Shown here piece by piece: positions 14,739-51,182 of a stretch of DNA of 64,000 nucleotides. Numbering within the stretch: position 1 is the first letter of the stretch; each line of letters starts with the position of its first letter. The notes beneath the pieces are model-generated. The model was given only the letters and a program-made list of their open reading frames with translations. It ran no database searches and was not told the DNA's origin. This stretch comes from Sulfurimonas lithotrophica (GTDB lineage Bacteria > Campylobacterota > Campylobacteria > Campylobacterales > Sulfurimonadaceae), in contig NZ_CP043617.1 of the NCBI RefSeq assembly GCF_009258225.1, forward strand, positions 1,612,001-1,676,000, given 5' to 3'. The position numbers and the translations under genes were made by a program.

Positions 14739-16643
14739 TTACAGCTCTATAAAACTGCTTAGTTCAGAAAAAACAACAGCTCTTTTTTTCTCATTTTCAT
14801 CTAAAATAGCCTCTAATAATAAAGCTATATTCTCATCTATCTTTGGTACGAGTTTTCTAATATCTTGAAGTTTTTCACTTTTTAGTGTGTTTGTAAACTT
14901 ATCGTATGCCGTATAAGGTTCGACTTTAGATAAGGCATAATAAAGTCTGCGACCAAGTTCAAACACTTCAAACTCTTCGTTTTTACCAGTTTTTGCACTA
15001 TGGATAAACTCAAAATCAGTATCAATTTTTTTCTCTCTTAAATAAGCGTTCAGTTTCATAGCAAAACCTATATTTGATAAAGTAAATTTTGACAGTAGTC
15101 TATCGTTGAACTGCTCAAAGTTTTCATTTTCAAGTCTGTGCTTTTTATACTCTAGCATCAATGATTCTACATAGTATTTTGCATACATCAAAGGAGCTGA
15201 TTTTATAACGGTTCTTCCCTCAACTCCTTCGCTTACAAGTTTTCCGCCTAGATATATATGTACACCGTCCACTGCTTCACCCTCAACTTTTGCTTTACAA
15301 CCTTCAAACCCTATATCAGCCAAGGCATGATTGCCACAACCCTTTACACAAGCAGACCAGTACATTCTAACTCTTCCACTATCAATATGTACTTTTTCAT
15401 CCAAGTATTTTGCCATCTCAATAGCATCGTTTTTATTCTCAATTACCCCAAAAGGACAATGTGCCGTTCCCGCACAAGCGATTAAATGATTCATGTACGG
15501 TGAATCTACACTTTTATACTTTTTAAACAACTCTTCTTTTAGAAGTGCTTCTACATCTCTTACACCTAATATATAAAGCGATTGTTCCATATCAAGACGA
15601 ATCTGTTCATTTCCGTATTTAGTTGCAAGCTCTGCTACCTCCATCATTGCTGAACCGCTAAATACTCCAGAAGGTACGACCATATGCACGCCGAAACTTC
15701 CATCACGAAGCTGAACGCGCCCTTGGTCTGGGTCGTTAAAATCAATCTGTGTCATCGTAGTACCCGCACTTAGAAAATCAACTCCCGCATTCTCTCTGAT
15801 AGCACTTGCTATCTCTTCGATGCCTACCGCTTCTATGAGGTGGTGAAGTCTGTTTTTATTGCGGTTATCACGAAAACCGAAACGTTTAAATATATCTATA
15901 ATAGAGCCAAAAGCAAGGATTACGTCAGATTCGTTGCGTAAAAATATATTTGCATTTTTGCCTACTACGCCTACTTTTCCACCAAGGTACATATTGTATC
16001 CGTACATTCCGTCTTTTTGAGCTAACACAAAAGAAGCATCGTGACAAAATATATTACATCTGTTTGAGAGTGAACCCGTAATTGCAGTGTTAAACTTTCT
16101 AGGAAGTGCAGATATCCAATCACTTGAATACAAAAACATCTCTTGAAGTTTTAGAAGAGTCTTGTGAGATGGAAGCACATTGTCAAAACCCATATCGTCC
16201 AAAGGATCACACATAATACTTCTGATGTTATCAACTCCCGTTTGGTATGCATCTATACCCACAAGTTCTAGTTTTTTTAAAATAGTAGGCAGGTCTTCTA
16301 TACGAAGGTATCTAAGCTCACACTGCTGTCTTGTAGTTAAATCAATATAGTCTTGACCGTATTCTTTTGCACACTCCCCTATTACCTTAGCCTGAGTAGC
16401 ATTCATAAATCCACCGGGAATACGAAGCTTTAGCATAAATCTCTCTGGAGTTGCAGGTCTGTCATAGATGCCAAAACATTTTAAAAAGTATTTTTTATCT
16501 TCATCTGGAATAGATGCATAACCGTCCCTTGCATAATCTTGAAGTTTATTATATGCTTCTTTTGGGTCTTTGAGGTTTTTCATCACCTCAACTTTATTTA
16601 ACTTTTTACTTCTTGCTTCATATGCTTCTTGTAACTTTTTCAT
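14739..16643 (-). CDS. nirA: Ferredoxin-type nitrite reductase (siroheme, [4Fe-4S]), assimilatory
   Basis: The 634-residue protein belongs to the nitrite/sulfite reductase family. It has two ferredoxin-like half-domains and the siroheme/[4Fe-4S] cysteines C-X5-C (CAGTAHC, then PFG) and C-X3-C (CVKGC, then GNHALADIG) near residues 400-450. Arg-rich siroheme contacts (LTTRQQCELRYL) lie near residue 105. It reduces nitrite to ammonium with six electrons in the cytoplasm. Its ATG overlaps the nitrate reductase stop by 4 bases, so the pair works in sequence. No NAD(P)H- or flavin-binding domain is present, so a ferredoxin or similar donor is needed. Sulfite reductase is the alternative, but the neighbours favour nitrite. 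Confidence 0.9.
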   Translation of the reverse strand: MKKLQEAYEARSKKLNKVEVMKNLKDPKEAYNKLQDYARDGYASIPDEDKKYFLKCFGIYDRPATPERFMLKLRIPGGFMNATQAKVIGECAKEYGQDYIDLTTRQQCELRYLRIEDLPTILKKLELVGIDAYQTGVDNIRSIMCDPLDDMGFDNVLPSHKTLLKLQEMFLYSSDWISALPRKFNTAITGSLSNRCNIFCHDASFVLAQKDGMYGYNMYLGGKVGVVGKNANIFLRNESDVILAFGSIIDIFKRFGFRDNRNKNRLHHLIEAVGIEEIASAIRENAGVDFLSAGTTMTQIDFNDPDQGRVQLRDGSFGVHMVVPSGVFSGSAMMEVAELATKYGNEQIRLDMEQSLYILGVRDVEALLKEELFKKYKSVDSPYMNHLIACAGTAHCPFGVIENKNDAIEMAKYLDEKVHIDSGRVRMYWSACVKGCGNHALADIGFEGCKAKVEGEAVDGVHIYLGGKLVSEGVEGRTVIKSAPLMYAKYYVESLMLEYKKHRLENENFEQFNDRLLSKFTLSNIGFAMKLNAYLREKKIDTDFEFIHSAKTGKNEEFEVFELGRRLYYALSKVEPYTAYDKFTNTLKSEKLQDIRKLVPKIDENIALLLEAILDENEKKRAVVFSELSSFIEL

Positions 16644-18935: not shown

Positions 18936-20519
18936 TTAACCTCTTTGTTTTGCCGTGAAAAAATTGCCTGCCATACCTAGCGGCACTACAGTTGAATAAA
19001 ATAAAAATCTGTCGCTTAACTCACTTGCTATTATCAATAAAAGTGAAAGTATCATTGCAATAGATGCAATACCAAAAGAAGACGAGCTTAAAAATACTAT
19101 TGCGAGTAGTGGAAGCAATACTCCCCCTAAAACTATAGATACAAAACGAAACACTTTTATGTTATTAAAGTTCTCATCATAAAGCCTTGCACTTCTTGAT
19201 AACTGATAAGTGTTTTCAGTGCTGCTTTTTAGAGTACGCATATCTTCATATGTAAAAAACACCTGAGCCAGTGCACCTAGCATTGCCAGTGAAATTAAAG
19301 GGAGTGTAATCTCTAGTATTCCAAAAACCAAGGCTATAAAACCAAGCAAACTTACACCGATATACGCAACTCCGAAAAACTTCATATTTGTAGTTATTCT
19401 ATCCCATGAAGGACGAGCTTTGATGCGATAAATCATACTTTGAGCGTAGATTCCGTACACTCCAACTACAAAAGTCAGTAACTCTATAATAAGCCTTGTA
19501 CCTTGCGATACCTCTAAAAAATATAAGGCCGTAACTACACTCATCAATGCCGTAAAAATACCTAGAGCCAAAGCCTCACGTGATAACCATGAGGTTTTTA
19601 TGTTTTTCATTGCAGTCAGTGCCAAAATAGGACGTCCAAGGTGTAAAGCTGAGAGTGGAAGCCCTACTGCAGCAGGTAACAATACTAATAAAGCCATAAT
19701 CCAATTTGGCGATTCAAAACCGAATATACTCATAACATCACCCAAAAACAGTGCTAAAAAACCACCTAGTGATATTTGCGTTAAAACCGTCATAAATACA
19801 AGAGGCAGTTCCGAATGAGCAGGTTTTAGTATATGCTCATCCATCTCTTTTATATCTTGTGGTAGCTTATCAGGCAGTGTATATCTTGTAGTAGAGTTTG
19901 TTATAGATGCATCTGGTAAAAACGGCATATCTGCTTGTTTTTTCATATCTTCATCTAACCACTTCTTTACATTTACTACTTCTATCTCTATTGCACCCGA
20001 TGGACAAGCCTGCACACAAGCAGGAGTCTGACCAACATCTAACCTTTCATGGCACATGTGACACTTGGTTACTATATTTCTCTCTTCATGAAAAGTAGGA
20101 ACACCGTATGGACAGTTCCAAGTACAATACTGACACCCTATACAAGTCTCATCTTCATGAACTACTATTCCCGTTTTGTCTATCTTTATATATGAGTTTG
20201 TAGGACAGCCTTTTAAACACTCGGGATCGATGCAGTGGTTACAACTCATAGAGTTAAATATTTGGGTAAATACAGGGAATTCTCCGCCTTCCATCTCACC
20301 TACTCTTCTCCATTTTATATCTGAGGGATTATTGTTTTGTTCATTACAAGCCACCTCACAACAACGACAACCGACACATGCAGTTGCATCAAAGTGAAAA
20401 CGGTATTGCTCACCATCTTGAAGTTTTGGAATATCAATAGAGTAGTTACCGCACTGCATGCCAGTACCTGCCTTGTACTCTATAAAACTCTCTAATGGTG
20501 TTTGATTATTCTCTTTCAT
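18936..20519 (-). CDS. Fused four-cluster ferredoxin / DmsC-type membrane anchor (DmsB-DmsC fusion)
   Basis: Residues about 40-190 carry four DmsB-type [4Fe-4S] motifs: CVGCRCCEVAC, CNHCIDPECLKGC, CIGCQYCTWNC and CHMCHERLDVGQTPACVQAC. After a linker, residues about 240-525 hold eight or so hydrophobic helices of the DmsC quinol-anchor type, with LGGFLALFLGD and PLSALHLGRP. In DMSO reductase these two parts are separate proteins that carry electrons from menaquinol to the catalytic subunit. Here they are one 527-residue chain without a Tat signal, so the clusters should face the cytoplasm. It is the first gene of an operon with narB and nirA, so I infer quinol-driven electron supply to nitrate reductase, perhaps also to NirA. 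Confidence 0.85.
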   Translation of the reverse strand: MKENNQTPLESFIEYKAGTGMQCGNYSIDIPKLQDGEQYRFHFDATACVGCRCCEVACNEQNNNPSDIKWRRVGEMEGGEFPVFTQIFNSMSCNHCIDPECLKGCPTNSYIKIDKTGIVVHEDETCIGCQYCTWNCPYGVPTFHEERNIVTKCHMCHERLDVGQTPACVQACPSGAIEIEVVNVKKWLDEDMKKQADMPFLPDASITNSTTRYTLPDKLPQDIKEMDEHILKPAHSELPLVFMTVLTQISLGGFLALFLGDVMSIFGFESPNWIMALLVLLPAAVGLPLSALHLGRPILALTAMKNIKTSWLSREALALGIFTALMSVVTALYFLEVSQGTRLIIELLTFVVGVYGIYAQSMIYRIKARPSWDRITTNMKFFGVAYIGVSLLGFIALVFGILEITLPLISLAMLGALAQVFFTYEDMRTLKSSTENTYQLSRSARLYDENFNNIKVFRFVSIVLGGVLLPLLAIVFLSSSSFGIASIAMILSLLLIIASELSDRFLFYSTVVPLGMAGNFFTAKQRG

Positions 20520-20549: not shown

Positions 20550-20640
20550 ATCTTAGCACTAAATTAATGTAGAATTAATATTTTATTGTATAAATTTTAT
20601 ACAATATTATGTTTAATTAGTACTTATATGGTTGTATAAT
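20550..20640. promoter_or_regulatory. Divergent nitrate-assimilation promoter with central palindrome
   Basis: A perfect 23-bp palindrome at 20584-20606 has the core TTGTATAAA-T-TTTATACAA, centred at 20595. A rightward -10 TATAAT (20635-20640) for narK starts 40 bp from the centre. A leftward -10 TAAGAT (20555-20550) for the ferredoxin-anchor operon also starts 40 bp away. Neither has a good -35. The centre would sit near -52 for both starts, where an activator could act on both sides at once. A half-site TTGTATAAT overlaps the narK -10. The same arrangement recurs at 25072-25164. Confidence 0.65.
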
Positions 20641-20658
20641 TTTCCAATCTAAACATAC

Positions 20659-20676
20659 TTAATGTAAAGTTAAGTT
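20659..20676 (+). repeat. 18-bp sequence shared with 25087-25104
   Basis: TTAATGTAAAGTTAAGTT occurs here just ahead of the narK ribosome-binding site and again, in the same orientation, at 25087-25104 in the other divergent region of the island. It contains the spaced half-sites TTAA and GTTAA. It may be a second regulator site or the trace of a duplicated promoter. Confidence 0.6.
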
Positions 20677-20688
20677 AAAAGGAAAATT

Positions 20689-21969
20689 ATGGCAGGATTA
20701 AAAGACTTAAAAGGACAAGGACATGCACCGACACTGTTCATGGCCTTTTTATATTTTGATATGAGTTTTATGGTTTGGACGATGCTTGGTCCATTAAGTA
20801 CGGAGATAGCTGAAGCCCTTGCACTTAGCGGACATATAATGAGTGCAGGTGAAAAAGCGACACTTCTTTCGCTTCCTATTCTTTCAGGTGCACTCTTACG
20901 TATATTATTGGGATTTGGTGTAGATAAGCTTGGAGCAAAACTTACGGCTATGATGGCTCAATCTGTTGTAATCGCAGCACTGCTTACTGCATATTTACAA
21001 GGTAACACTATTACATATAATACGCTTTTACTTGTAGCGCTCGGTTTAGGTTTTGCGGGAGCTTCATTCGCGGTAGCACTTCCACAAGCAGGTCAATGGT
21101 ATCCGCCTAAACTTCAAGGCGTTGTTTTAGGAATTGCAGGTGCGGGAAATATAGGTGTTGTAATTGACTTTTTATTTGCGCCAAAAATTGCTGAGCTTTG
21201 GGGATGGGAATCTGTATTTGGCGTAGGTGCCGCTATGTCAATCGCTGTATTTATAGCTTATGGATTTTTAGCTAAAAACGCTCCTGAATCAGTGTATAAA
21301 GCTAATCCTAAAAAAGTCAAAGACTATATAAAACTTTTAAAAGATAAAGACACATGGTGGTTTAATCTTTTTTATGCAGTTAGTTTTGGTGGATTTGTAG
21401 GTTTTGCAGGATATATGAAAGTGTATCTTATGAATACATATCAAGCAGATATGAGTGCATTTGGTTTAGATGTTTTAAATGAAAGCAATGTAAAAGTAAT
21501 AGCTGGTTATTTTGGAGCACTGTGTATATTTGCAGGTGCGGTTCTTCGTCCGGTTGGTGGAGCTGTTGCAGATAAACTAGGCGGAGTAAAATCTTTATAT
21601 ATGTTCTTTGGAACGGTAACACTTTTAGCTATCTTAAATGCTACTATGACTCTTCCTTTTGGTGTTGCTATATTTGTACTGTTTTTAATTATGGCAAATT
21701 TAGGTATGGCAAACGGTGCAGTTTTTCAACTTGTACCTCAAAGATTCGGTAAAGACATAGGGATAATGACAGGTATTATTGGTGCAGCAGGCGGTCTTGG
21801 CGGTACAGCCCTTATTAAAACTTTAGGCTGGAGTAAGGGTGCGTTTGACGGTTACTCTGCAGGATTTATGATATTTGCTACGGTTGTTTTAATCGCACTT
21901 ATGGGAATCTCATTAGTTAAAACTAGATGGCGTACTACTTGGGGTGTAGCAGCAGGAGGTAGAATATAA
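20689..21969 (+). CDS. narK: MFS nitrate/nitrite transporter (NarK/NasA family)
   Basis: The 426-residue protein has about twelve hydrophobic helices. Family marks include the N-terminal FLYFDMSFMVWTMLGPLS, the NNP-type glycine motif GIAGAGNIGVV in helix 5 and the second one in GAAGGLGGTALIKTLG. Members import nitrate with protons or exchange nitrate for nitrite. It is transcribed alone, divergently from the ferredoxin-anchor/narB/nirA operon, which points to an assimilatory uptake role. Export of nitrite made by Nap is the alternative. The ATG follows a good AAAAGGA site. The predicted leader of about 42 bases carries the 18-bp shared sequence. Confidence 0.92.
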   Translation: MAGLKDLKGQGHAPTLFMAFLYFDMSFMVWTMLGPLSTEIAEALALSGHIMSAGEKATLLSLPILSGALLRILLGFGVDKLGAKLTAMMAQSVVIAALLTAYLQGNTITYNTLLLVALGLGFAGASFAVALPQAGQWYPPKLQGVVLGIAGAGNIGVVIDFLFAPKIAELWGWESVFGVGAAMSIAVFIAYGFLAKNAPESVYKANPKKVKDYIKLLKDKDTWWFNLFYAVSFGGFVGFAGYMKVYLMNTYQADMSAFGLDVLNESNVKVIAGYFGALCIFAGAVLRPVGGAVADKLGGVKSLYMFFGTVTLLAILNATMTLPFGVAIFVLFLIMANLGMANGAVFQLVPQRFGKDIGIMTGIIGAAGGLGGTALIKTLGWSKGAFDGYSAGFMIFATVVLIALMGISLVKTRWRTTWGVAAGGRI

Positions 21970-22004
21970 CTAAACAAATTCCTTTGTATTTAAGATTAGT
22001 AATA

Positions 22005-22010
22005 TATAAT
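22005..22010 (+). promoter_or_regulatory. Probable -10 box for the polysaccharide deacetylase gene
   Basis: TATAAT lies 28 bases before the chosen ATG, implying a separate promoter from narK. No nitrate-type palindrome is present here, so this gene may not share the island's control. Confidence 0.45.
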
Positions 22011-22037
22011 TCAAACATTTAAAAATACGGAGTGTTA

Positions 22038-23063
22038 ATGAATCCAAAAATTATTTTATATTTACTAATTTTATTTATAACATCATCAATATATGCACAA
22101 AGTGCAGTTGTATTGATGTATCATCGTTTTGGGGAAGATAGATACCCCTCTACAAATATAGGTATGGAACAATTTAAGTTTCAACTAGACTATCTTGAAA
22201 AAAACTCTTACAATGTTTGGCATCTCTCAAAAATAGTAAGATATATACAAGACAAAAAGACACTTCCCCCAAAGACTGTGGCTCTTACTATAGATGATGC
22301 CTATCTTAGTGTTTTTACAAAAGCATATCCACTTTTAAAATCAAAGAACTTTCCATTTACGGTTATGGTAAACACGGACCAAGTAGATAAAAATTTCAGT
22401 AGCTATATGTCATGGAATCAACTACGTAAACTTAAGCAAAACGGTGTAGAATTTGCAAACCATTCGTGTAGTCATGATTCTTTTATACCTATAAAAAATG
22501 AAACAAAAAAAGATTGGAAAAAAAGAATAACAAACGAGATACAAAAAGCTCAGAGAAGAATAAATAAAGAATTAGGATATGATGTAAATACAAACCCAAA
22601 ACTACTATCCTATCCGTATGGTGAGTATAATTTAGAAACTGCAAAGCTCGCCAAAAAACTCGGTTACGTTAGTATCACACAAACATCAGGTCCAATAAGT
22701 ATAGATTCTGATTTAAATCTTATAAACAGATTTCCAATGTCGGAACAACTTCCAAATAACGACAGCTTTATCGTAAAACTAAACTCTCTAGCATTACCTA
22801 TTGAATCTGCTACTCCGCAGGAGCCCATTTTACAAGAAAAAAATCCACCTATACTTCGTATAAAACTAAAACAGCCACTAAAAAATATAGCTTGTTATCT
22901 ATCTAACGGAGATAAAATAGACTTTAAATATATATCTGAAACAGAACTTGAAGTACAATCAAACAATCCTATAAAATCACCTAGGGGAAAATACACTTGT
23001 ACTGCACCTGCAAAAGACGGCAGATGGTATTGGTATAGTCATTTATGGATTGTAAATGACTAA
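22038..23063 (+). CDS. Secreted polysaccharide deacetylase (NodB-homology domain)
   Basis: The 341-residue protein has a signal peptide (NPKIILYLLILFITSSIYAQS) and a NodB domain. The metal-site motifs TIDDAY near residue 85 and HSCSH near residue 145 are visible, followed by LSYPYGEYN. Such enzymes remove acetyl groups from N-acetylglucosamine polymers, either surface polysaccharide (PgaB-like) or peptidoglycan. The last 90 residues form a separate beta-rich domain of unknown role. The ATG at 22038 is preferred over a GTG at 22032 because the GTG overlaps the CGGAG ribosome site. It ends tail to tail, overlapping the second nitrate reductase gene by 4 bases. It has no evident link to nitrate use. 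Confidence 0.85.
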   Translation: MNPKIILYLLILFITSSIYAQSAVVLMYHRFGEDRYPSTNIGMEQFKFQLDYLEKNSYNVWHLSKIVRYIQDKKTLPPKTVALTIDDAYLSVFTKAYPLLKSKNFPFTVMVNTDQVDKNFSSYMSWNQLRKLKQNGVEFANHSCSHDSFIPIKNETKKDWKKRITNEIQKAQRRINKELGYDVNTNPKLLSYPYGEYNLETAKLAKKLGYVSITQTSGPISIDSDLNLINRFPMSEQLPNNDSFIVKLNSLALPIESATPQEPILQEKNPPILRIKLKQPLKNIACYLSNGDKIDFKYISETELEVQSNNPIKSPRGKYTCTAPAKDGRWYWYSHLWIVND

Positions 23064-25042
23064 ACTATTTTAGAGATTTTTACAGCTGAATGATTATAAT
23101 CCGGCTGTAAAGATTCTCTATCTAATATATCGTTAGTAAGATAGTTTATTTCACGATTACTTATCGGTATAAAGATAGTTTTTTCTCTTATAGCGTCTGT
23201 TACGTAAGCTTTTGTTAAAATCTCACCTCTGCTGGATGCAACTTTTATTTTCTCACCATGTTTGATTTGTAATTCATCGGCATCTTTTGTGTTTATTTCA
23301 CAAAAGTTCAACTCTTTATATTGAAGCAGTGTCCTTGGCAAGTTTGTTTTTGTTCCACTGTGCCACTGATCTCTCGTGCGTCCTGTTATTAGGGTAAACG
23401 GATATTTTATAGAAGTTTTTTCACTTAAAAGTTTATTCTCTACAAAAAACAGATTACCTTTTTTATCTTCAGTTAGAAACTCTTTTATATTTTCACCCCA
23501 AATAAAAGGCTTGTGTGAGAGTTCATCATATGAAGCTTCACTTATATCCATATAATCATTTAATTTCGTCATCTCTTGATACTCTTCAAATATCTCTTTA
23601 GTATTTTTAAAATTAAACTCTTCCTTATATCCAAGCTTTTGTGCAAGCAGTTGAAATATCTCCCAATCCGGCTTACACTCGATTGACGTACGTGTAAGCT
23701 TTTCCTGCTTTGTAATTGTTCTGTCAAGATTCGTCTGAGTACCCTCTTTTTCTCCCCAAGGAGCAGCAGGAAGCCTAATGTGTGCGAACTTAGCCGTTTC
23801 AGAGTTATCATACGCATTTATCTCAACTACCATTGGTATTTTTTTTATAAGCTCTTCAACCCTGTTTCTGTTTGGAAGATGATATACGGGATCCGTATGG
23901 CAAATTATTAAAACATCCAGTTTTGCATCTAGCATCTGAGTAGCTGTAAGCCCCGGTTTATTATCTATATTATCCGTATTCCAAAACTTCGATACTTTTT
24001 CTATGCTCTCTTTATCAAAGCCAAGATGCACGGCAAGAGAAGTTGAGAGACCTCCTACTTCCCTGCCACCCATGGCATTTGGCTGACCAGTTAAACTCAA
24101 AGGACCGTTACCGGCTTTAAATATCTTTCCTGTTAACAGATGCGTATTTATAAGTGCCGTGTTCTTATCCACACCCTGAGAAGACTGGTTTAAACCCATT
24201 GTCCATGCGGAGATTATATTTTCACTATTTATATAAAGTTCAAAAAACTCGTCAAACTCCTCTTTTGTAAGACCTGTTCTTTTTAGCATCTTTGTAACAG
24301 GGGCTCTTTTAAACTTATTTTTAAGAAGTTCAAAATTATTTACATGTTTATCTACAAACTCTTTATTATATAGATCTTCATCGATTAATCTTTTAGATAT
24401 CAAGTTAAAGAAATCAATATCACTTCCAACTTTAATAGAGAGATGTATATCTGCTATTTTTGCAGTATCCGTCTCTCTAGGATCAATTACAACTACTTTA
24501 AGTCCGTATTTTTTGGCTTTTTTTATTTGGTTGTGAAATACTACATGTGCCTCAGCGGTATTTGCGCCTGCTAAGATTAAAAGATTTGATTTAAATATAT
24601 CATCCATTCTTAGAGGAACGAAATCGGCACCCAAGGATTTTTTATACCCGACAATTGCACTCGACATACATGTACGTGAATTTGTATCTACGTTGTTTGT
24701 ACCTATGAAACCTTTTCCAAGTTTATTTGCTACGTAATAATCTTCTGTTAAAAGCTGTCCTGAGAGATAAAAACCTATTTTATCTTTTTTAGTATTTTTT
24801 ATCTTGTTAGCTATTAATGATATAGATTCTTCCCAAGTGGAAACTTTATACTCTTCATCTATACTATCTCTAATGTGCGGTCTTAATAATCTTGTCGAGG
24901 TATCTATACTTATAAGTTCAGATATACCTTTTGAACAAAGCCTTCCTTCGTTAATAGGATAAGCAACATCGCCGATAAGATTATCTTTATCAAATTCTAA
25001 ACCGCATCCAACACCGCAGTATCCGCAAACTGATCTAATCAT
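23060..25042 (-). CDS. Second NarB-type Mo-bisMGD oxidoreductase (compact nitrate reductase paralogue)
   Basis: The 660-residue protein is a shorter paralogue of the narB product. It starts directly at the [4Fe-4S] motif (SVCGYCGVGCGLEF), with the fourth Cys in GRLCSKG. It keeps the probable Mo-ligand Cys in SRTCMSSAIVGYKKSLGAD, the cofactor loops GANTAEAH, VIDPRET and WTMGLNQSSQG, and GRTRDQWHSGTKTN at the C-terminal domain. No signal peptide is present, so it is cytoplasmic. Its promoter is shared with the nitrate ABC transporter through the palindrome at 25109-25127, so an assimilatory nitrate role is likely. A formate dehydrogenase-like function is the alternative. It has no partner subunit of its own nearby. 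Confidence 0.82.
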   Translation of the reverse strand: MIRSVCGYCGVGCGLEFDKDNLIGDVAYPINEGRLCSKGISELISIDTSTRLLRPHIRDSIDEEYKVSTWEESISLIANKIKNTKKDKIGFYLSGQLLTEDYYVANKLGKGFIGTNNVDTNSRTCMSSAIVGYKKSLGADFVPLRMDDIFKSNLLILAGANTAEAHVVFHNQIKKAKKYGLKVVVIDPRETDTAKIADIHLSIKVGSDIDFFNLISKRLIDEDLYNKEFVDKHVNNFELLKNKFKRAPVTKMLKRTGLTKEEFDEFFELYINSENIISAWTMGLNQSSQGVDKNTALINTHLLTGKIFKAGNGPLSLTGQPNAMGGREVGGLSTSLAVHLGFDKESIEKVSKFWNTDNIDNKPGLTATQMLDAKLDVLIICHTDPVYHLPNRNRVEELIKKIPMVVEINAYDNSETAKFAHIRLPAAPWGEKEGTQTNLDRTITKQEKLTRTSIECKPDWEIFQLLAQKLGYKEEFNFKNTKEIFEEYQEMTKLNDYMDISEASYDELSHKPFIWGENIKEFLTEDKKGNLFFVENKLLSEKTSIKYPFTLITGRTRDQWHSGTKTNLPRTLLQYKELNFCEINTKDADELQIKHGEKIKVASSRGEILTKAYVTDAIREKTIFIPISNREINYLTNDILDRESLQPDYNHSAVKISKIV

Positions 25043-25071
25043 TAATTTAACTCCTAACTAATATAAGCAGT

Positions 25072-25164
25072 ATAATACAATATTTTTTAATGTAAAGTTA
25101 AGTTTATATTGTATAAATATTATACAATCTTTAGTATATTTTAGTATCATCATTCTGTTATACT
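25072..25164. promoter_or_regulatory. Second divergent nitrate-assimilation promoter with matching palindrome
   Basis: TTGTATAA-ATA-TTATACAA at 25109-25127 (centre 25118) repeats the palindrome seen at 20584-20606. The rightward -10 TATACT (25159-25164) for the ABC transporter operon and the leftward -10 TATTAT (25077-25072) for the second nitrate reductase each start 41 bp from the centre. The leftward -10 lies inside TTGTATTAT, a near half-site, as at narK. Predicted starts are near 25171 and 25065. Confidence 0.65.
25087..25104 (+). repeat. 18-bp sequence shared with 20659-20676
   Basis: TTAATGTAAAGTTAAGTT here lies between the leftward -10 box and the palindrome, 5 bases from the palindrome's left end. 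In the other copy it lies beyond the rightward -10 box. The position relative to promoters therefore differs although the sequence is identical. Confidence 0.6.
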
Positions 25165-25205
25165 TCTCTACATAAAACATACTCATGTAAATTTAAGGAG
25201 AGAAT

Positions 25206-26585
25206 ATGTTAAAGAAAATAGTTGGAATAGGTTTAGGTTTATCGTTAGTTGCCACTTCTTTGTTGGCCGAAGTAGAAAAGAAAAAACTCACTATCGGTTT
25301 TATCGCACTGACAGATTGTGCACCGATTGTTATTGCCGAGGAAAAAGGTTTCTTTGACAAATACGGTTTAGATGTACATGTTGTAAAAGAAGGTGGCGGA
25401 TGGCCCGGTATTCAGCAAAAAGTAATAAGTGGGGAATATGATTTTTCACACGCACTTGCCGGTATGCCGATAGCTGCTACTTTGGGAATTAACGGTGATG
25501 CAAACCTTCAAGCTGTATTATCACTTGATTTTAACGGTAACGGTATCACTTTTGGAAACAAAATCATCAAGCAGATGGAAAAATACGGAATGGACAAAAA
25601 AGCTCGTCCACTAAATTCAGATGCACTAAAAAAATATATAGATGCAAAACATAAAAAAGAAGGCTCAAAGTACCAACCGCTTTCATTCGGTATGGTTCAC
25701 CCTGTTTCAACTCACAACTACGAGTTAAGATATTGGATGGCATCTTCTGGAATCGTTCCGGATCGTGATACTACGATTAAACCTTTCCCGCCACCGACAA
25801 TGCCTTCAAACCTGATAGCTGGTAATATCGAAGGATACTGTGTCGGTGAGCCTTGGAATGAGAGAATAGTTTTAAAGAAAAAAGGTTCAACTCTTGTAAC
25901 AAACTATGATATTTGGAACAACAACCCTGAAAAAGTACTTCAGACTCGTGCTGATTTTATCAAAAAGTACCCTGAAACTACAAAAGCGGTAATGAAAGCG
26001 ATTTTAGAAGCTCAAATGTGGCTGGATGCATCATGGGAAAACCGTAAAGAAGCTGCAAAAATTTTAAGTAAACCAAACTATGTAAAAGCTCCCGTAAAAG
26101 TGTTGGAAAAATCTATGACGGGTACTTTTCAATACTTAAAAGGTCAAAACTCGGAAGCTAATCCTATGTTTAACGTATTTGCTAACTACTATGCTGCATA
26201 TCCATTCTACTCTCACGGTATGTGGTTTATAACTCAGATGTACAGATGGGGTCAGTTAGATAAAGCTGTAGATATGAAAAAAGTAATCGAGTCTGTTTAC
26301 AGACCTGACTTGTTTGCCGAAGTAGCTAAAGAGATAGGTTATTCACTTCCTCCAAGTCCATGGAAAAAAGACGGTGTAGATAAATACAATATGTTTATGG
26401 ATGGAAAAGTTTGGGATCCTAACAAAGCGGTTGATTATATCTTTTCAACTGGTATTGATGAATCAAAAGTATCTAAAGAAGAACTTTTAAAAGTAAACAA
26501 ATGGAGTGTTAAGACTGAACAGCCGGACTATGTATGTCCATACGGTCCTGCCGGATGTGCAGATCCGAAATACGTTACGAAATAA
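25206..26585 (+). CDS. nrtA: Nitrate ABC transporter substrate-binding protein (NrtA/CmpA family)
   Basis: The 459-residue protein has a signal peptide (LKKIVGIGLGLSLVATSLLAE) and an NrtA-type ligand-binding fold. It opens with TIGFIALTDCAPIVIAEEKGFFDKYGL, and later has the loops HALAGMPIAATLGI, YCVGEPWNER and GQNSEANPMF. NrtA proteins bind nitrate or nitrite in the periplasm and deliver it to NrtB. It has a strong AAGGAG site and is the first gene of the operon. No lipobox is visible, so it should be soluble in the periplasm. Bicarbonate (CmpA-like) or sulfonate binding is less likely given the nitrate neighbours. A long stem-loop follows its stop. Confidence 0.9.
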   Translation: MLKKIVGIGLGLSLVATSLLAEVEKKKLTIGFIALTDCAPIVIAEEKGFFDKYGLDVHVVKEGGGWPGIQQKVISGEYDFSHALAGMPIAATLGINGDANLQAVLSLDFNGNGITFGNKIIKQMEKYGMDKKARPLNSDALKKYIDAKHKKEGSKYQPLSFGMVHPVSTHNYELRYWMASSGIVPDRDTTIKPFPPPTMPSNLIAGNIEGYCVGEPWNERIVLKKKGSTLVTNYDIWNNNPEKVLQTRADFIKKYPETTKAVMKAILEAQMWLDASWENRKEAAKILSKPNYVKAPVKVLEKSMTGTFQYLKGQNSEANPMFNVFANYYAAYPFYSHGMWFITQMYRWGQLDKAVDMKKVIESVYRPDLFAEVAKEIGYSLPPSPWKKDGVDKYNMFMDGKVWDPNKAVDYIFSTGIDESKVSKEELLKVNKWSVKTEQPDYVCPYGPAGCADPKYVTK

Positions 26586-26650: not shown

Positions 26651-27466
26651 ATGAAAAATGAATTAATTAAAAAGATACTATTACCACTGTTGGTCTTTGT
26701 ATTGATAATCCAAGTCTGGTCGGGGATATCAACAATAGTAGATGATTTTCCGACACCAAGTGATACTTATGTAGCGGCATTTGGAGGTGTTACAAGTGAT
26801 GGTGATGAGTTCGTCGGTGTTTTAAGCGACCCGTTTTATGTTGAAAATCAAGATGTTAAAGGTATCTTTTGGCAAATACTAGAGTCTTTAAAAAGAGTAT
26901 TTTCAGGTTTTATTTTAGCAATACTTGTAGGTGTACCACTTGGTTTACTTATAGGTATGAGTAAAAATGCACAGTATGCTTTTGATCCCTTTATTCAAAT
27001 ATTTAAACCGGTATCACCGCTTGCTTGGTTGCCACTGCTGCTATTTATATTTCAAGATATAAATATGACGGCAATATCGACTATTTTTATAACATCTATC
27101 TGGCCAATCATTATAAATACGGCTTTAGGTGTTAAGAGTGTAAGTGAGGACTATATGAACGTAGCTAAGGTACTTAGGTTTTCTCCGCTGGAAAAGATAA
27201 TACAGATTATTTTACCTGTATCGGTTCCGTATATTTTTACAGGGATGAGATTATCTCTTGGGATTGCATGGTTAGTAATCGTAGCAGCTGAGATGTTAAC
27301 AGGTGGTATCGGTATAGGTTTTTGGATTTGGGATGAATACAACAACCTCAACTACCACAACATTATCATAGGTATCATCGTTGTAGGTCTGATTGGTTAC
27401 TTACTAGACCTTATGATGGGGAAAATTGCAAATTATTTTGATTATACAAAGAAAGGTAGAGCGTAA
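26651..27466 (+). CDS. nrtB: Nitrate ABC transporter permease (NrtB type)
   Basis: The 271-residue membrane protein has about six hydrophobic helices. The coupling-loop region ALGVKSVSEDYMNVAKVLRFSPLEKIIQIILP corresponds to the EAA motif that contacts the ATPase. FKPVSPLAWLPLLLFIF and GIAWLVIVAAEMLTGGIGIG match the NrtB/SsuC permease family. It forms the inner-membrane channel for substrate brought by NrtA. Its stop overlaps the ATPase ATG as TAATG. A periplasmic insertion near residues 35-65 is longer than in most relatives. Confidence 0.92.
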   Translation: MKNELIKKILLPLLVFVLIIQVWSGISTIVDDFPTPSDTYVAAFGGVTSDGDEFVGVLSDPFYVENQDVKGIFWQILESLKRVFSGFILAILVGVPLGLLIGMSKNAQYAFDPFIQIFKPVSPLAWLPLLLFIFQDINMTAISTIFITSIWPIIINTALGVKSVSEDYMNVAKVLRFSPLEKIIQIILPVSVPYIFTGMRLSLGIAWLVIVAAEMLTGGIGIGFWIWDEYNNLNYHNIIIGIIVVGLIGYLLDLMMGKIANYFDYTKKGRA

Positions 27467-28260
27467 TGAATGATAAATTTTTAAGTCTGCAAAATATTGA
27501 AAAAAAATTCCCTATACCGGGGAAAGAGGATTATGTCGCGGTAACAGACGTTAATTTGGAGATTAAAAAAGATGAGATTATCTCTATTATCGGTCACAGT
27601 GGATGCGGGAAAAGTACACTTTTAAATATGATTTCAGGACTGGATGCACAAACAGACGGGACTATACTTCTTGAGAATAAACATGTCTCAGGTCCGGGAC
27701 CCGAGCGTGCAGTAGTATTTCAAAATCATTCTCTTTTACCATGGTTAACGGTATATCAAAATATTGAAATGGCTGTAAAAAAGGTAATGCCTGAACTTAG
27801 TTCAGCAGAGCTTAGAGAGAGGGTTGAGAAGTTTGTATCTATGGTAAATCTAGACCATGCGAAAGATAAACTTCCTGATGAGATAAGTGGCGGTATGAAA
27901 CAACGTGTAGGTATTGCAAGGGCTTTGTCTATTAAACCTAAAGTACTTTTAATGGATGAACCATTTGGTGCGCTTGACTCTTTAACACGTGCAAATTTAC
28001 AAGAGCATCTGATGAGGATACAACAAAATGTTAAAAATACGGTTATAATTATTACACACGATATTGATGAAGCCGTACTTCTTAGTGACAGAGTTATTAT
28101 GATGACAAACGGACCTGAAGCTACCATAGGTGAGATACTGGAAGTAAACTTAGAGCGTCCAAGAGACAGAGTATCACTTCAAAGTGATCCTGAATACATT
28201 AGATGCCGAGAAGCAATTTTAAGCTTCCTATACGAAAAGTTTGCTAAAGATGATGAATAG
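27466..28260 (+). CDS. nrtD: Nitrate ABC transporter ATP-binding protein (NrtD type)
   Basis: The 264-residue ATPase has Walker A GHSGCGKSTLLNM, a Q-loop in VVFQNHSLLPWLTV, the signature SGGMKQRVGIARAL, Walker B VLLMDEPFGALDSL and the switch His in IIITHDIDEAVLL. It powers import through NrtB. It is the single-domain NrtD type, without the NrtA-like regulatory domain fused in cyanobacterial NrtC. The next gene starts 15 bases downstream, so the transporter is probably co-transcribed with the sensor and kinase genes. Confidence 0.93.
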   Translation: MNDKFLSLQNIEKKFPIPGKEDYVAVTDVNLEIKKDEIISIIGHSGCGKSTLLNMISGLDAQTDGTILLENKHVSGPGPERAVVFQNHSLLPWLTVYQNIEMAVKKVMPELSSAELRERVEKFVSMVNLDHAKDKLPDEISGGMKQRVGIARALSIKPKVLLMDEPFGALDSLTRANLQEHLMRIQQNVKNTVIIITHDIDEAVLLSDRVIMMTNGPEATIGEILEVNLERPRDRVSLQSDPEYIRCREAILSFLYEKFAKDDE

Positions 28261-28275
28261 ATAAAAGGAAATACT

Positions 28276-29136
28276 GTGCAAGAATTTATGAGCACATACA
28301 AAGAAAACGTAAAAGATATTGAAAACTTTCTAATCGAGACTGTTTTTAATCTTGGAAATTTAGAAGAGAGGGAGAGTGAAGACTTTAAAAAAGTCTTTAA
28401 AGTCTTTCCATCATTAGAGCTTATATATGCCTGTGATGAAAGTACAATGCTTCAGACTTCTGAAAATATATACAGAAATAAAAAAAGTAAATCACCAATT
28501 GGAAGAAACAGAGATTACCTTCTTAGCAAAGCAGAATTTAACGATAGCAACCTTGCTATAACAAAACCTTACATCAGCAGTGCTACAGGTGATACTTGTA
28601 TAACCGTAGCAAAAAAAGAAAACGATAAAATCTATTTTCTTGATTTTAATATCTCTATCTTACTTCAAAGACTTGGACTTATAGAGATACACAGCGGTTT
28701 TAACTTTGTAAGTAAAAGTTTTTACTTCCTTACGGCAAATATTATGATGATACTGGCACTTTTTACTATAGGTTATTCTGTATATGAATTTGGTCATTCT
28801 TTATTATTTAAAGGTGAGTTATCAATAGAAGCTATATTCAAGCCTGTTATTGCACTGACACTCGGACTAGCTATATTTGACCTTGCAAAAACAGTATTTG
28901 CACAAGAAGTTGTGTTTAAAAGTTATTCAAAAAATTCAACAGAAGAGTATAAAGTATTAACAAAATTCTCCATTACAATTATTATCGCTTTACTAATTGA
29001 GTCACTTATGGTCGTATTTAAAATCGCTATAGATGACTACTCACATATGATACATGCTTTTTATCTTATTGGCGGAGTTTCTGTTTTAATCTTAACACTT
29101 GGAATGTTCATATATTTTACAAAGAAGAAAGGCTAA
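28276..29136 (+). CDS. Membrane protein with N-terminal PDC/Cache-like sensor domain, no output domain
   Basis: The 286-residue protein has a soluble N-terminal part with a PDC/Cache-like pattern: FPSLELIYACDE, GRNRDYLL, then KPYISSATGDTCITVAKKENDKIYFLDFNI near residues 95-130. It is followed by four hydrophobic helices at about 155-180, 195-215, 235-258 and 262-282. No kinase, GGDEF or methyl-accepting part follows. The start is GTG at 28276, 6 bases after AAAGGA. It lies between the nitrate ATPase and the phosphatase-kinase gene, so it may pass a nitrate or nitrogen signal to that protein. That link is inference. The sensor part may be cytoplasmic because no signal peptide or N-terminal helix precedes it. 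Confidence 0.65.
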   Translation: MQEFMSTYKENVKDIENFLIETVFNLGNLEERESEDFKKVFKVFPSLELIYACDESTMLQTSENIYRNKKSKSPIGRNRDYLLSKAEFNDSNLAITKPYISSATGDTCITVAKKENDKIYFLDFNISILLQRLGLIEIHSGFNFVSKSFYFLTANIMMILALFTIGYSVYEFGHSLLFKGELSIEAIFKPVIALTLGLAIFDLAKTVFAQEVVFKSYSKNSTEEYKVLTKFSITIIIALLIESLMVVFKIAIDDYSHMIHAFYLIGGVSVLILTLGMFIYFTKKKG

Positions 29137-29137
29137 T

Positions 29138-30775
29138 ATGCAAAATAGCCACATAAAAACATCAGGGTTTTCACTTGCAAAAGGCAAGGAATTAACCGGA
29201 GATGACTTTTATGATGTAAAAACTATAGGCAACCTCACTATAGGTATAGTGTGTGACGGTGTGGGAAGTGCCGAAGAAGGTGCTCATGCCGCACAAAGAG
29301 TTACTACATACTTAATGAACAACTTTAAAATTCGTCCAAAAAGCTGGAGTATTGAAAAATCTATAAAAAATTTTATAAAGTCAATAAACTCTATTCTTTA
29401 TGAAGAATCAATCATAAACTATGAAAGAGCTGAACTTGTTACTACTTTAACAATAGTAGTCATTGAAGGTAATAAACTATACGGCGCCAATGTCGGAGAT
29501 TCAAGGGTATATCTACTAAGAGATAAAAAACTAAACAAACTCTCGTTTGATCATTCCATGAATGAAGTTGGGTATGAAAATGTCTTGACACAAGCTATAG
29601 GAATAGAAAAAGAAGTTGAACCGTATTATTTTGAAAATATAGTTCAAAAAGATGATGAAATTTTACTTTGCAGTGACGGTCTCTATACAATAATGAGTGA
29701 AAACCGTCTTGAAAAAGGGATCTCTTTAGGGGCTTCTACACTAGTTAAAAAAGCTTCCAAACTTACAGAAGACAATCTTCCCGATGATACTACCGCTGTC
29801 GTATTACAGATAAAAGAAACCAACCAAATAGAGAAGCTAAAACAGCAAAAACTTGGTATTCCAGAGTCATTAAAAGTCGGTGAACTTATCGATGGATATA
29901 AACTGAAAAAACCTCTTATTCAAAACGAGCGGACATGGCTGTGTACTAAAAAAAACAAACAGTATGTAGTTAAGTTTGCACCTACTGAGGCAATAGATGA
30001 TGAAACAATCTTAGACCTGTTCGTAAAAGAGGCTTGGAATGCAAAAAGGTTAAAAACAGACTTTTTTCCAAAAGCCGTTATCCCAAAAAACAGGACTTCA
30101 AGATATTATGTCATGCAACTATTTGATGGTGAGGATCTAGATTCATATCTATCAAATAAACAACTAACCATAGATGACGGCGTAGAACTGGCATCTACAC
30201 TTCTAAAGATGTCACATTATTTACTAAAGAATGATTTAGTTCATGGAGATATAAAACCTCAAAACGTGATGATATCAAAAGATGAGAATGAAAATTTAGA
30301 GTTTAAAATCATAGATTTTGGAAGCATAACGGAGATTTTTTCTAAAAATACGCGTGCGGGAACTCCAAGCTTTTTATCTCCTGAGAGATTTAGGGATGAA
30401 TCTATTAGTGAGACAAGCGAGATATTTGCAATTGGTGTTACATTATATCTATCACTTACAGGTAAATATCCTTACGGAGAAATTGAGCCCTTTCAAAACC
30501 CGAACTTTAAAGATGCAAAAAAACCAAGCATTTACAATAAAAATATACCACACTGGTTAGACAGCGTAATACTACGCTCAATCGCAATAGATAAAGAGAT
30601 AAGGTATGAGCACTATTCAGAGATGATATATGAGCTCTCAAATCCTCAAAAAGTTAAACCCTATTTTTCAAAGAATACTCCACTGATTGAGCGTGAACCT
30701 GTTTTATTTTACAGAGTCGGATTTACTATAATGACAATCATCAACTTTATACTTATTGTTTTATTAGTTAAATAA
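29138..30775 (+). CDS. Fused PP2C-type protein phosphatase and Ser/Thr protein kinase with C-terminal membrane anchor
   Basis: The 545-residue protein begins with a PP2C domain (about 1-230) showing the metal-site residues in GDDFYDV, IGIVCDGVGSAEEGAHAA, ANVGDSRVY, LLCSDGLY and DDTTAVVL. A Hanks-type kinase follows (about 250-505): lysine in QYVVKFAP, catalytic HGDIKPQN, IIDFGS and SPERF. A hydrophobic helix ends the chain (about 520-543). The glycine loop of the kinase is not clear. The ATG at 29138 is chosen over 29099, which lies inside the previous gene. Similar phosphatase-kinase fusions adjoin nitrate-assimilation genes in some pseudomonads as I recall, so control of nitrate uptake or reduction by phosphorylation is a reasonable inference. 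Confidence 0.88.
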   Translation: MQNSHIKTSGFSLAKGKELTGDDFYDVKTIGNLTIGIVCDGVGSAEEGAHAAQRVTTYLMNNFKIRPKSWSIEKSIKNFIKSINSILYEESIINYERAELVTTLTIVVIEGNKLYGANVGDSRVYLLRDKKLNKLSFDHSMNEVGYENVLTQAIGIEKEVEPYYFENIVQKDDEILLCSDGLYTIMSENRLEKGISLGASTLVKKASKLTEDNLPDDTTAVVLQIKETNQIEKLKQQKLGIPESLKVGELIDGYKLKKPLIQNERTWLCTKKNKQYVVKFAPTEAIDDETILDLFVKEAWNAKRLKTDFFPKAVIPKNRTSRYYVMQLFDGEDLDSYLSNKQLTIDDGVELASTLLKMSHYLLKNDLVHGDIKPQNVMISKDENENLEFKIIDFGSITEIFSKNTRAGTPSFLSPERFRDESISETSEIFAIGVTLYLSLTGKYPYGEIEPFQNPNFKDAKKPSIYNKNIPHWLDSVILRSIAIDKEIRYEHYSEMIYELSNPQKVKPYFSKNTPLIEREPVLFYRVGFTIMTIINFILIVLLVK

Positions 30776-50492: not shown

Positions 50493-51182
50493 ATGTTACA
50501 AACGGAAATTGAAAAGAAACTTCAGTATATTAAAAATTTATCGTTTTTCAAAACTCTGGATGATGGACAGATAGGAAATATTTTAGAGATATCTATTATA
50601 AAAGAATACCCGAAGAATTCTATTCTATATTATGAAAATGATACTAAGAATAAAGTTTATTTTTTACTTAGCGGGCTTTTAAAAGTTTATAAAATAGATA
50701 AATACGAAAATGAAATTTTTCTTTATCATATATATGAAAACCATATGATATCTGAACTTACAACTATTGAAAATGATACCATATACTGCTTTTCAAATGC
50801 AGAGTTTGTAGAAGACAGCGTAATTCTAGAGATAGATTACGACAAGTTTAGAAATGATTTTTTATCTAAAGGGCTGTTAAATCATGAGTTTATAAAAGAG
50901 ATTCTTCAAAAAAATTCTCAACTGCACTGTATAGTAAATAGAGAATTAGTATTTGATGCAACGGCAAAAGTTGCTTTTATGTTACATGATGATTTAAAAA
51001 TTTTTAATTCAAAAAAGCGCCATGAAGTTTCTTTTATGCTTCATATTCAACCTGAAACACTTTCGCGTGTATTGAAAAAACTTTCAAGAAATTCTATTAT
51101 TGAGATAGAAAATTCAAAAGTTATTATAAAAGATGAAAAAGCCCTAAAGAGAATATATATGGGGGATATAATAGATGGCTAA
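50493..51182 (+). CDS. Crp/Fnr-family transcriptional regulator, cysteine-free sensor domain
   Basis: The 229-residue protein has an N-terminal cyclic-nucleotide-like barrel (YPKNSILYYENDTKNKVYFLLSGLLKVYKI) and a dimer helix. The C-terminal winged helix includes EVSFMLHIQPETLSRVLKKLSRN. The recognition helix carries E-x-x-S-R (ETLSR), the FNR/DNR pattern that reads TTGA half-sites. The FNR iron-sulfur cysteines are missing, so it is not an oxygen-labile FNR. It may sense nitric oxide (DNR-like) or another ligand. It lies directly before the PilJ-type sensor and the nap operon, whose promoter has a TTGAC-N4-GTCAT site, so control of nap is a sound inference. Confidence 0.87.
   Translation: MLQTEIEKKLQYIKNLSFFKTLDDGQIGNILEISIIKEYPKNSILYYENDTKNKVYFLLSGLLKVYKIDKYENEIFLYHIYENHMISELTTIENDTIYCFSNAEFVEDSVILEIDYDKFRNDFLSKGLLNHEFIKEILQKNSQLHCIVNRELVFDATAKVAFMLHDDLKIFNSKKRHEVSFMLHIQPETLSRVLKKLSRNSIIEIENSKVIIKDEKALKRIYMGDIIDG

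Follow-up and report, generated by a model that had tools for sequence, protein, structure and literature searches.

A probable palindromic operator of nitrogen-assimilation promoters in Sulfurimonas lithotrophica and its relatives, with a truncated NtrC relative as its candidate reader

We analysed a window of 64,000 nucleotides of Sulfurimonas lithotrophica (contig NZ_CP043617.1, positions 1,612,001 to 1,676,000), in which two copies of one palindrome, hereafter called dyads, lie in the two divergent promoter regions of a nitrate-assimilation island. The palindrome is almost certainly the operator of a widespread nitrogen regulon. The candidate for its reader, probably the right one judging from sequence comparisons, is a single-copy, receiver-less, truncated relative of NtrC of about 245 amino acids (aa), provisionally named FisTF; the whole explanation, which joins this operator, FisTF and activation at sigma70 promoters, is likewise probable. 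Genomes, loci, contigs, family-level groups and genera are given by our handles (G, L, C, f and g; f1 is the family of the window).

Both dyads were confirmed in the window, letters and coordinates alike, as a first-pass annotation of this DNA had claimed: dyad 1 is TTGTATAAATTTTATACAA, centred on position 20595, and dyad 2 is TTGTATAAATATTATACAA, centred on 25118. The distances claimed for the four outward -10 boxes were also correct, namely 40 bp on both sides of dyad 1 and 41 bp on both sides of dyad 2, and the genes of the four transcription units matched their given roles in nitrate transport, nitrate reduction and nitrite reduction (Table 1). The TAAGAT box of the dmsBC unit is weak (4 of 6 positions as in TATAAT) and failed the strict -10 test described below. 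The exact palindrome was found in the S. lithotrophica genome (2.4 Mb, 99.99% complete) in these two copies only. What stands above chance here is the exactness of the palindrome, its location and its distance from the -10 boxes.

The wider form of the dyad motif was TTGWWTAA-N3-TTAWWCAA (WW motif), with half sites that varied between TTGTATAA and TTGATTAA. We collected 30 nrtA loci (that of the window and 29 relatives), returned among the 54 of 228 family genomes that have nrtA, and found a dyad with up to 3 mismatches upstream of 27 nrtA genes, 26 of them at -87 to -121 and one at -184; in the other three it was missing or out of place. For promoter architecture, these 30 promoters and the glnA promoters of 15 genomes with FisTF, neither set picked for the dyad, were joined with 20 promoters picked for their dyad (6 from the genome of the window, 14 from relatives), which are informative on spacing only. 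The dyad was present with up to 3 mismatches in 63 of these 65 promoters; the misses were nrtA_L082, with runs of N upstream, and glnA of G295, while L090 and L101, which have an out-of-place match only, were kept in the 63. Several positions were nearly fixed among the 63 sites (T-8 in 63, G-7 in 62, T-4 in 63, A-3 in 63, A+4 in 62, C+7 in 62 and A+8 in 63), counts that are biased towards the motif because the sites were located with it.

A strict -10 box (TA...T, at least 5 of 6 positions) started 40 or 41 bp from the dyad centre in 45 of the 63 promoters, against a mean of 2.2 and a maximum of 7 in 500 shuffles, and no other pair of offsets free of overlap with these exceeded 6 of 63. By set, the box stood at this distance in 19/30 nrtA and 13/15 glnA promoters (32/45 together) and in 13/20 of the hand-picked rest; a relaxed -10 raised the count to 53/63. 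The -35 box was not above chance (6 of 45, 7.3 expected), and a sigma54 -24/-12 element (GG-N10-GC) was found in the last 130 bp of only two of the 65 promoters, none of them in the window. The layout is that of sigma70 promoters with an activator bound upstream, its centre near -52, and the spacing first noticed in the window is general across promoters. The earlier proposal of one shared regulator bound midway between divergent units is supported; the regulator is probably an activator, since no -35 box exceeds chance. At the window promoters in particular, the missing -35 makes activation likely, rather than repression; promoters of Campylobacterota may lack a -35 in any case. At the FisTF gene's own promoters (L201, L327, L331) the dyad stands at -34 to -51 and the 40/41-bp spacing is missing, a placement that could mean self-repression.

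Allowing one mismatch, the WW motif gave 12 sites in the S. lithotrophica genome. Five were intergenic (the two window sites, glnA, amtB2 and a porin gene) and seven lay in called open reading frames (ORFs), one of which, C1:1980830, is at the overlap of two divergently called ORFs and may be intergenic. The glnA dyad belongs to an amtB-glnK-glnA-nif cluster, and the amtB2 dyad lies between glnK and the second amtB. The amtB of the glnA cluster has a 2-mismatch site at -87 with a TATAAT exactly 40 bp from its centre; this promoter was found later and enters no count. No such dyad was found upstream of the third amtB gene, though it is 98.9% identical to the glnA-cluster amtB. This pair of near-identical genes (1311 bases; L119:5808-7112 and L120:6056-7360) has the dyad only at the copy in the glnA-nif cluster. 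At the porin gene (L118:7531-7569) the dyad forms the middle of a 39-base palindrome, symmetric except for its 3-base centre; a porin follows the dyad also in G266 (L194), and porins adjoin glnK-amtB in G012 (L072), all porin names except that in L118 being assigned by eye.

Elsewhere in f1, sites that were exact or had one mismatch preceded narK (G088, G215, G193, G013), nrtA (G216), amtB (G012), nasA with a divergent COX1-like pair (G150 and G216; G207 at a contig end) and a unit of FNT channel, PP2C and nirA (G206, G218). The COX1-like pair (L062, L065, L068) consists of a 553-aa protein and a 196-aa partner; in G150 and G216 its dyad is also that of nasA, and in G207 it has a dyad as well. 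At least one exact copy of the WW motif occurred in 97 of 397 genomes sampled across Campylobacterota. We inspected some 8 kb to either side of 20 sites picked by hand from the places printed (AT-rich centres, spread); since they were hand-picked, shares among these 20 phylum places, as among 20 family regions, are not rates. The downstream gene was glnA in four (L195, L202, L205, L208), amtB and/or glnK in seven (L190, L197, L198, L200, L201, L204, L206) and narK in one (L207), and the remaining eight lay upstream of a porin, transporters, an alanine-dehydrogenase region or unassigned genes (names by eye). Exact copies upstream of nitrogen genes were found in f1, f3, f5, f7, f8, f12 and f13, and 3-mismatch copies at glnA in f2, f4 and f10. 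As the same operator stands at glnA, amtB, glnK and the porin gene, the regulon concerns nitrogen assimilation generally; the proposal of a regulator dedicated to nitrate assimilation was not borne out and is too narrow.

FisTF was first seen in G259 and G254 (f8) and G231 (f5), within amtB clusters. It measures 220-260 aa there, combines a truncated AAA part of the sigma54 type with a C-terminal helix of the Fis type, and is accompanied by a weakly PAS-like protein. In S. lithotrophica the FisTF gene (C1:875809-876549) lies outside the window, 0.76 Mb away, flanked by slyD and fabD, both named by eye. A profile of three FisTFs matched 217 of 228 family genomes at E <= 1e-3, among them 137 of 139 good genomes, and the ten family matches weaker than 1e-12 were all in genomes less than 90% complete. 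With a 9-sequence profile, 166 of the 397 phylum genomes had a match at E <= 1e-8, one each except for one genome with two: all 52 sampled genomes of f1, at least one genome in each of f4-f13, four in f3 and one in f2. Three proteins of S. lithotrophica exceeded the Pfam cut-off for a Fis-type helix-turn-helix (HTH), that is FisTF, a NifA-like protein and a receiver-HTH protein that presumably resembles HP1021.

The first-pass statement that no regulator gene adjoins the nitrate genes is true of the window, while in other lineages the candidate is near amtB/glnK. At least 28 named Campylobacterota loci had a whole or nearly whole FisTF gene, and they came from Sulfurimonas, Sulfurospirillum (including S. 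cavolei), Hydrogenimonas, Sulfurovum, Arcobacter and unclassified metagenome-assembled genomes (MAGs). FisTF clustered with amtB-glnK in L200, L206 and L332; it was followed by a glnD-like gene (a name that we assume from the sequence) in L190, L325 and L329, with amtB in the cluster in the first two. In G254, amtB and the FisTF gene have the dyad between them, in L201 it is in a promoter common to both genes, as is a 3-mismatch copy in L214, and in L327 and L331 FisTF and amtB have separate dyads. An NtrB-like partner adjoined FisTF in 9 of the 28 named loci listed, in the order FisTF, partner, amtB in Sulfurovum (L327, L332) and an 'Arcobacter' MAG (L331); dyads with up to 2 mismatches were found upstream of FisTF in L327 and L331 and upstream of amtB in all three.

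The DISCRIMINATING test compared the glnA promoters of two sets of 15 genomes, one with FisTF and one without it. All 30 have glnA, and their selection preceded any view of the glnA promoters except in G326 and G414, which were known beforehand. With FisTF, a dyad of up to 3 mismatches was present at -82 to -127 in 14/15 genomes, and one of up to 2 mismatches in 10/15. Without FisTF, none of the 15 had the dyad at the usual place and none had a match of up to 2 mismatches anywhere in 300 bp; there were three scattered 3-mismatch matches (-252, -51 and -214), and a 4-mismatch match at -85 in G253 that could be a remnant. The same contrast was found within groups. In genus g25 (f7) the dyad was at -84/-85 with 2-3 mismatches in 5/5 genomes with FisTF and in 0/8 without; in f3 it was present in G515 and G526 (with FisTF) and missing in G229, G236, G248 and G284 (without); and in f2 a 3-mismatch dyad was found in G382 (with FisTF) and none in G228, G232 and G267 (without). 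Fisher's test gave P = 2e-7 for the criterion of place, which was set post hoc, and 2e-4 for that of up to 2 mismatches; as the genomes are related, the three within-group contrasts outweigh the P value. Lone 3-mismatch copies are not significant (in G527, 33% of shuffles reach the same), thus the weight rests on their common position. FisTF is mostly lacking in f2 and f3, which by inference are the groups of Helicobacter and Campylobacter, and the glnA dyad is missing too in their seven FisTF-less genomes tested.

In a profile-profile comparison with 12 NtrC proteins from related loci, residues 2-243 of the 247 of FisTF aligned to NtrC 145-476 (E 1.5e-26), with the FisTF helix LGLNRNTLRKKI opposite NtrC LG(I/L)NRNTLRKKI. 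The recognition helix of S. lithotrophica FisTF, NRNTLRKK, is identical to that of alphaproteobacterial NtrC; NRxTLRKK was invariant in 28 FisTF sequences and reads NRxTLTKK in f5 and f8. Walker A and PPL.ER.ED are kept (G29, G34, R121 and D124 invariant and K35 nearly so in the 28 sequences) and align with the NtrC-family AAA part. Other parts are gone: the receiver PF00072 was detected in none of five FisTFs scanned and in both NtrC controls, GAFTGA falls in an unmatched stretch of the profile alignment, and the Walker-B acids DE are absent ('VIIVNIENSP' opposite 'TLFLDEIGDM'). Only the first 43-55 of the 168 positions of PF00158 matched in four of the five FisTFs, and none in L327. The best NCBIfam model was ntrC for four of the five, S. 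lithotrophica FisTF included (E 7e-12), and a Fis model for L327. On TIGR01818 S. lithotrophica FisTF reached 44.9 bits, against a curated cut-off of 558.6; because it is so far under the ntrC family cut-off, we do not call FisTF an NtrC. The homology of the partner to NtrB is the weakest among those proposed here. Its match to NtrB was limited to the stretch preceding the N-box (profile-profile E 6.4e-5, probability 64%), and it matched PDB 1r62 (NtrB) at E 0.12, behind a better chance match; HisKA/HATPase domains were found in none of four partners scanned and both in the NtrB control, and PAS (PF00989) in two of the four at E 0.027 and 0.14 only.

We propose that a dimer of a Fis-type HTH protein would bind TTG-N13-CAA, with the centre of the site about 52 bp before the transcription start, and recruit ordinary sigma70 RNA polymerase to promoters that have a -10 and no -35; at divergent promoters a single site would serve both directions. 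The single-copy FisTF is the likeliest reader, and its binding, activation, use of sigma70 and signal are what we infer for it. With Walker A kept, it may bind ATP; with the receiver, GAFTGA and Walker-B acids lost, it should have neither phosphorylation control nor a sigma54 route. The signal is probably nitrogen status, which GlnK (PII) or, in some lineages, the adjoining degenerate NtrB-like protein might deliver, a route that is speculative.

Several results weigh against this explanation. Loose matches of the palindrome in the S. lithotrophica genome were not enriched over a reversed control (124 and 148 with up to 3 mismatches, 3 and 2 with up to one), and the WW pattern with up to one mismatch gave 12 sites against 7; as loose matches are not above the control, genome-wide counts alone do not prove the palindrome. 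Among the first 30 phylum loci returned, which were not picked, three were upstream of nitrogen genes (L167 amtB, L174 glnA, L176 narK/nirA), 11 were inside genes, five were at one common spot by rpoN in f3 genomes and the others elsewhere. Five g17-type nrtA promoters and 13 others failed the strict -10 test. The neighbours of FisTF are slyD and/or fabD, and not nitrogen genes, in 17 of the 28 named loci listed and in S. lithotrophica. Its presence and absence are phylogenetically clumped, so that genes lost along with it would also correlate, and absence is not absolute, since per-genome scoring took the best six first-look candidates. S. lithotrophica FisTF is barely over the HTH_8 cut-off (22.1 against 22; 25.0 in another scan) and the others are below it, and the partner is known from the loci of other lineages. 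Finally, G295 (f11) has FisTF and no clear glnA dyad. At the usual place in its glnA promoter (L306, -80) there is CTGCCTATTTTTTCAGCAA, which keeps the G-N13-C geometry with different letters and is perhaps a drifted operator.

Chance palindromes in AT-rich spacers would agree with the loose counts just given, yet the dyad recurs at nearly all nrtA genes with fixed -10 spacing and differs at glnA with the presence of FisTF, which leaves chance a negligible probability. A more serious alternative, though an unlikely one, is that the operator is real and widespread and read by another factor (LysR, TetR, MarR or similar) that is kept or lost with the nitrogen genes. Besides the clumped distribution of FisTF, its remoteness from the nitrogen genes in the genome of the window would suit this, as would the range of regulator families searched in that genome, which were MerR and Fis-type HTH only; one locus read (L208) has a LysR gene 3 kb from glnA, and no systematic search for LysR was made. 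Against it, the G-N13-C geometry fits a Fis-type helix, FisTF is clustered with amtB or a glnD-like gene and with dyads in f1, f5, f7, f8 and Sulfurovum loci, and the glnA contrast holds within genus g25. An OmpR-type response regulator with a hybrid kinase by amtB1 (L119) was set aside, weakly, as no recurring copy was noticed beside the dyads of other families and no search was made. OmpR types usually bind direct repeats.

A CRP/FNR-type regulator, for instance the one before nap in the window, would have FNR-like TTGAT half sites and a gene adjoining nitrate-respiration genes in its favour. This is very improbable given the spacing, which is TTGAT-N9-ATCAA here and TTGAT-N4-ATCAA for FNR or GTA-N8-TAC for NtcA, and given targets that are assimilation genes and glnA. 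The same comparison agrees with the earlier remark that the site differs from the NtcA spacing, being GTA-N9-TAC, with TTG and CAA 13 bp apart. In this CRP/FNR region (50493-52170) the regulator gene, a gene for a PilJ-domain protein and, directly next, a napA-like gene follow one another; the regulator may control nitrate respiration. It is scarcely credible that a small MerR-type regulator like GlnR/TnrA reads the dyad, in spite of the resemblance to the spacing of the TnrA box and a 112-aa MerR gene (C1:622512-622847) beside rpoN, about 5 kb past the end of glnA. Close homologues of this gene (E <= 1e-31) were found in only 9 of 228 family genomes, for which it was rejected as a general regulator, and G088 and G215, with an exact narK dyad, have no homologue, G216 having just a weak 37% match of HspR length. 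This distribution was tested for the gene near glnA; the genome has two further MerR genes, one of which we take to resemble HspR. The 112-aa MerR gene (L127:1393-1731) lies where the nif cluster ends, in convergent orientation to rpoN, and is possibly linked to nif.

Taking up FisTF again, its likeness to NtrC covers the AAA part and Fis-type HTH by profile homology, the nitrogen targets (glnA, amtB/glnK, nitrate genes) and the TG-N13-CA dyad, and by these presumed targets it would work like NtrC. It is unlike NtrC in lacking the receiver, GAFTGA and Walker-B acids, in its sigma70-type promoters and AT-rich operator, and in having, in some lineages, a neighbour that is no kinase. TG-N13-CA and G-N3-A-W5-T-N3-C are the geometries of NtrC boxes and Fis sites, both read by Fis-type helices. 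The first-pass remark that the site differs from the NtrC site is thus right about the letters and not about the geometry, which is of NtrC/Fis type, and the best candidate is itself an NtrC remnant. Fis shares the NRxTLRKK helix and the operator consensus, and NCBIfam Fis models match the FisTF HTH; Fis differs as a nucleoid protein of 98 aa with no AAA part and degenerate sites. With GlnR/TnrA of Bacillus, too, sigma70 nitrogen promoters are activated from a dyad some 50 bp before the start, and the TGT-N11-ACA spacing is similar, but these are MerR-type proteins, and the MerR candidate here does not track the operator.

The NtrC proteins of R. capsulatus and Caulobacter are described as lacking GAFTGA and controlling nitrogen genes at sigma70 promoters, and R. 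capsulatus NtrC as needing ATP binding and not hydrolysis (PMC10274813). These proteins are alike to FisTF in nitrogen control at sigma70 promoters; they keep a receiver with a phosphorylated aspartate and the NtrB kinase, whereas FisTF has no receiver and its AAA part is cut further. Eight of the best nine matches listed outside Campylobacterota were in Rhodobacteraceae, and the string GAFTGA was absent in four such NtrC ORFs (L337, L339, L341 and the alphaproteobacterial L371). For A. butzleri, the genome report gives no NtrC/NtrB and no RpoN (PMC2147049), which fits a sigma70 system. The f7 genomes with FisTF are by inference Arcobacteraceae. Regulator genes named for Sulfurimonas nif clusters are P-II, nifA and araC, not FisTF (PMC12029903). 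In line with the first-pass view that the regulator is not described, the literature searched, in which few subscription journals were reached, gave no description of the operator, of FisTF or of the control of nitrogen assimilation in Campylobacterota; a search for TnrA boxes gave nothing.

Table 1. Operator dyads, -10 boxes and genes of the nitrate island (window positions).
Feature	Position	Strand	Remarks
Operator dyad 1	20586..20604	.	flanked by dmsBC-nasA-nirA (left) and narK (right)
Operator dyad 2	25109..25127	.	flanked by nasA2 (left) and nrtABC (right)
narK -10 box TATAAT	20635..20640	+	starts 40 bp right of dyad 1 centre
dmsBC-nasA-nirA unit -10 box TAAGAT	20550..20555	-	starts 40 bp left of dyad 1 centre
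nrtABC -10 box TATACT	25159..25164	+	starts 41 bp right of dyad 2 centre
nasA2 -10 box TATTAT	25072..25077	-	starts 41 bp left of dyad 2 centre
4Fe-4S and DmsC-like protein, 527 aa, dmsBC-like electron transfer	18936..20519	-	heads left unit
NasA-type molybdopterin reductase, 763 aa	16640..18931	-	under NCBIfam NasA/NasC cut-offs
NirA-type ferredoxin nitrite reductase	14739..16643	-	under NCBIfam cut-off; Pfam domains met
NarK-type nitrate/nitrite transporter	20689..21969	+	
NasA-type reductase no. 2 (nasA2), 660 aa	23060..25042	-	
nrtA-type nitrate-binding protein	25206..26585	+	NMT1_2 domain; precedes nrtB
nrtB-type permease	26651..27466	+	
nrtC/D-type ATPase	27466..28260	+	

The window holds further features. 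A short element, TAATGTAAAGTTAAGTT, occurs twice exactly, with one ATGTAAATTTAAGGA at the ribosome-binding site of nrtA (20660-20676, 25088-25104 and 25185-25199); the two spots by nrtA recur by eye in many relatives, often with a start-stop ATG-TAA or ATG-TAG in the nrtA leader. A polysaccharide deacetylase-like gene (by eye) lies between narK and nasA2 (22032-23063), and a PP2C phosphatase fused to a Ser/Thr kinase (29099-30775) adjoins nrtABC and has relatives beside narK in several genomes. The 286-aa membrane protein encoded at 28276-29136 has no Pfam or NCBIfam match, and its relatives (44-53% identity) are in clusters with amtB, FisTF or the glnD-like gene in other groups (L190, L206, L325, L329); it probably belongs to nitrogen control.

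At vents and redoxclines, Campylobacterota are among the leading users of nitrate. For this phylum the analysis defines an operator, finds a promoter architecture of fixed spacing, predicts a regulon and points to one single-copy candidate gene. We lean towards a broader picture in which nitrogen control in much of the phylum would be exerted by a fossil NtrB-NtrC pair without phosphorelay or sigma54 parts: an ATP-binding, Fis-headed activator of about 245 aa, often encoded between slyD and fabD, would act on sigma70 promoters at -52 and be run by direct contact with GlnK or by a PAS pseudo-kinase. If this is true, a two-component sigma54 system would have decayed to a one-component sigma70 regulator with its targets retained.

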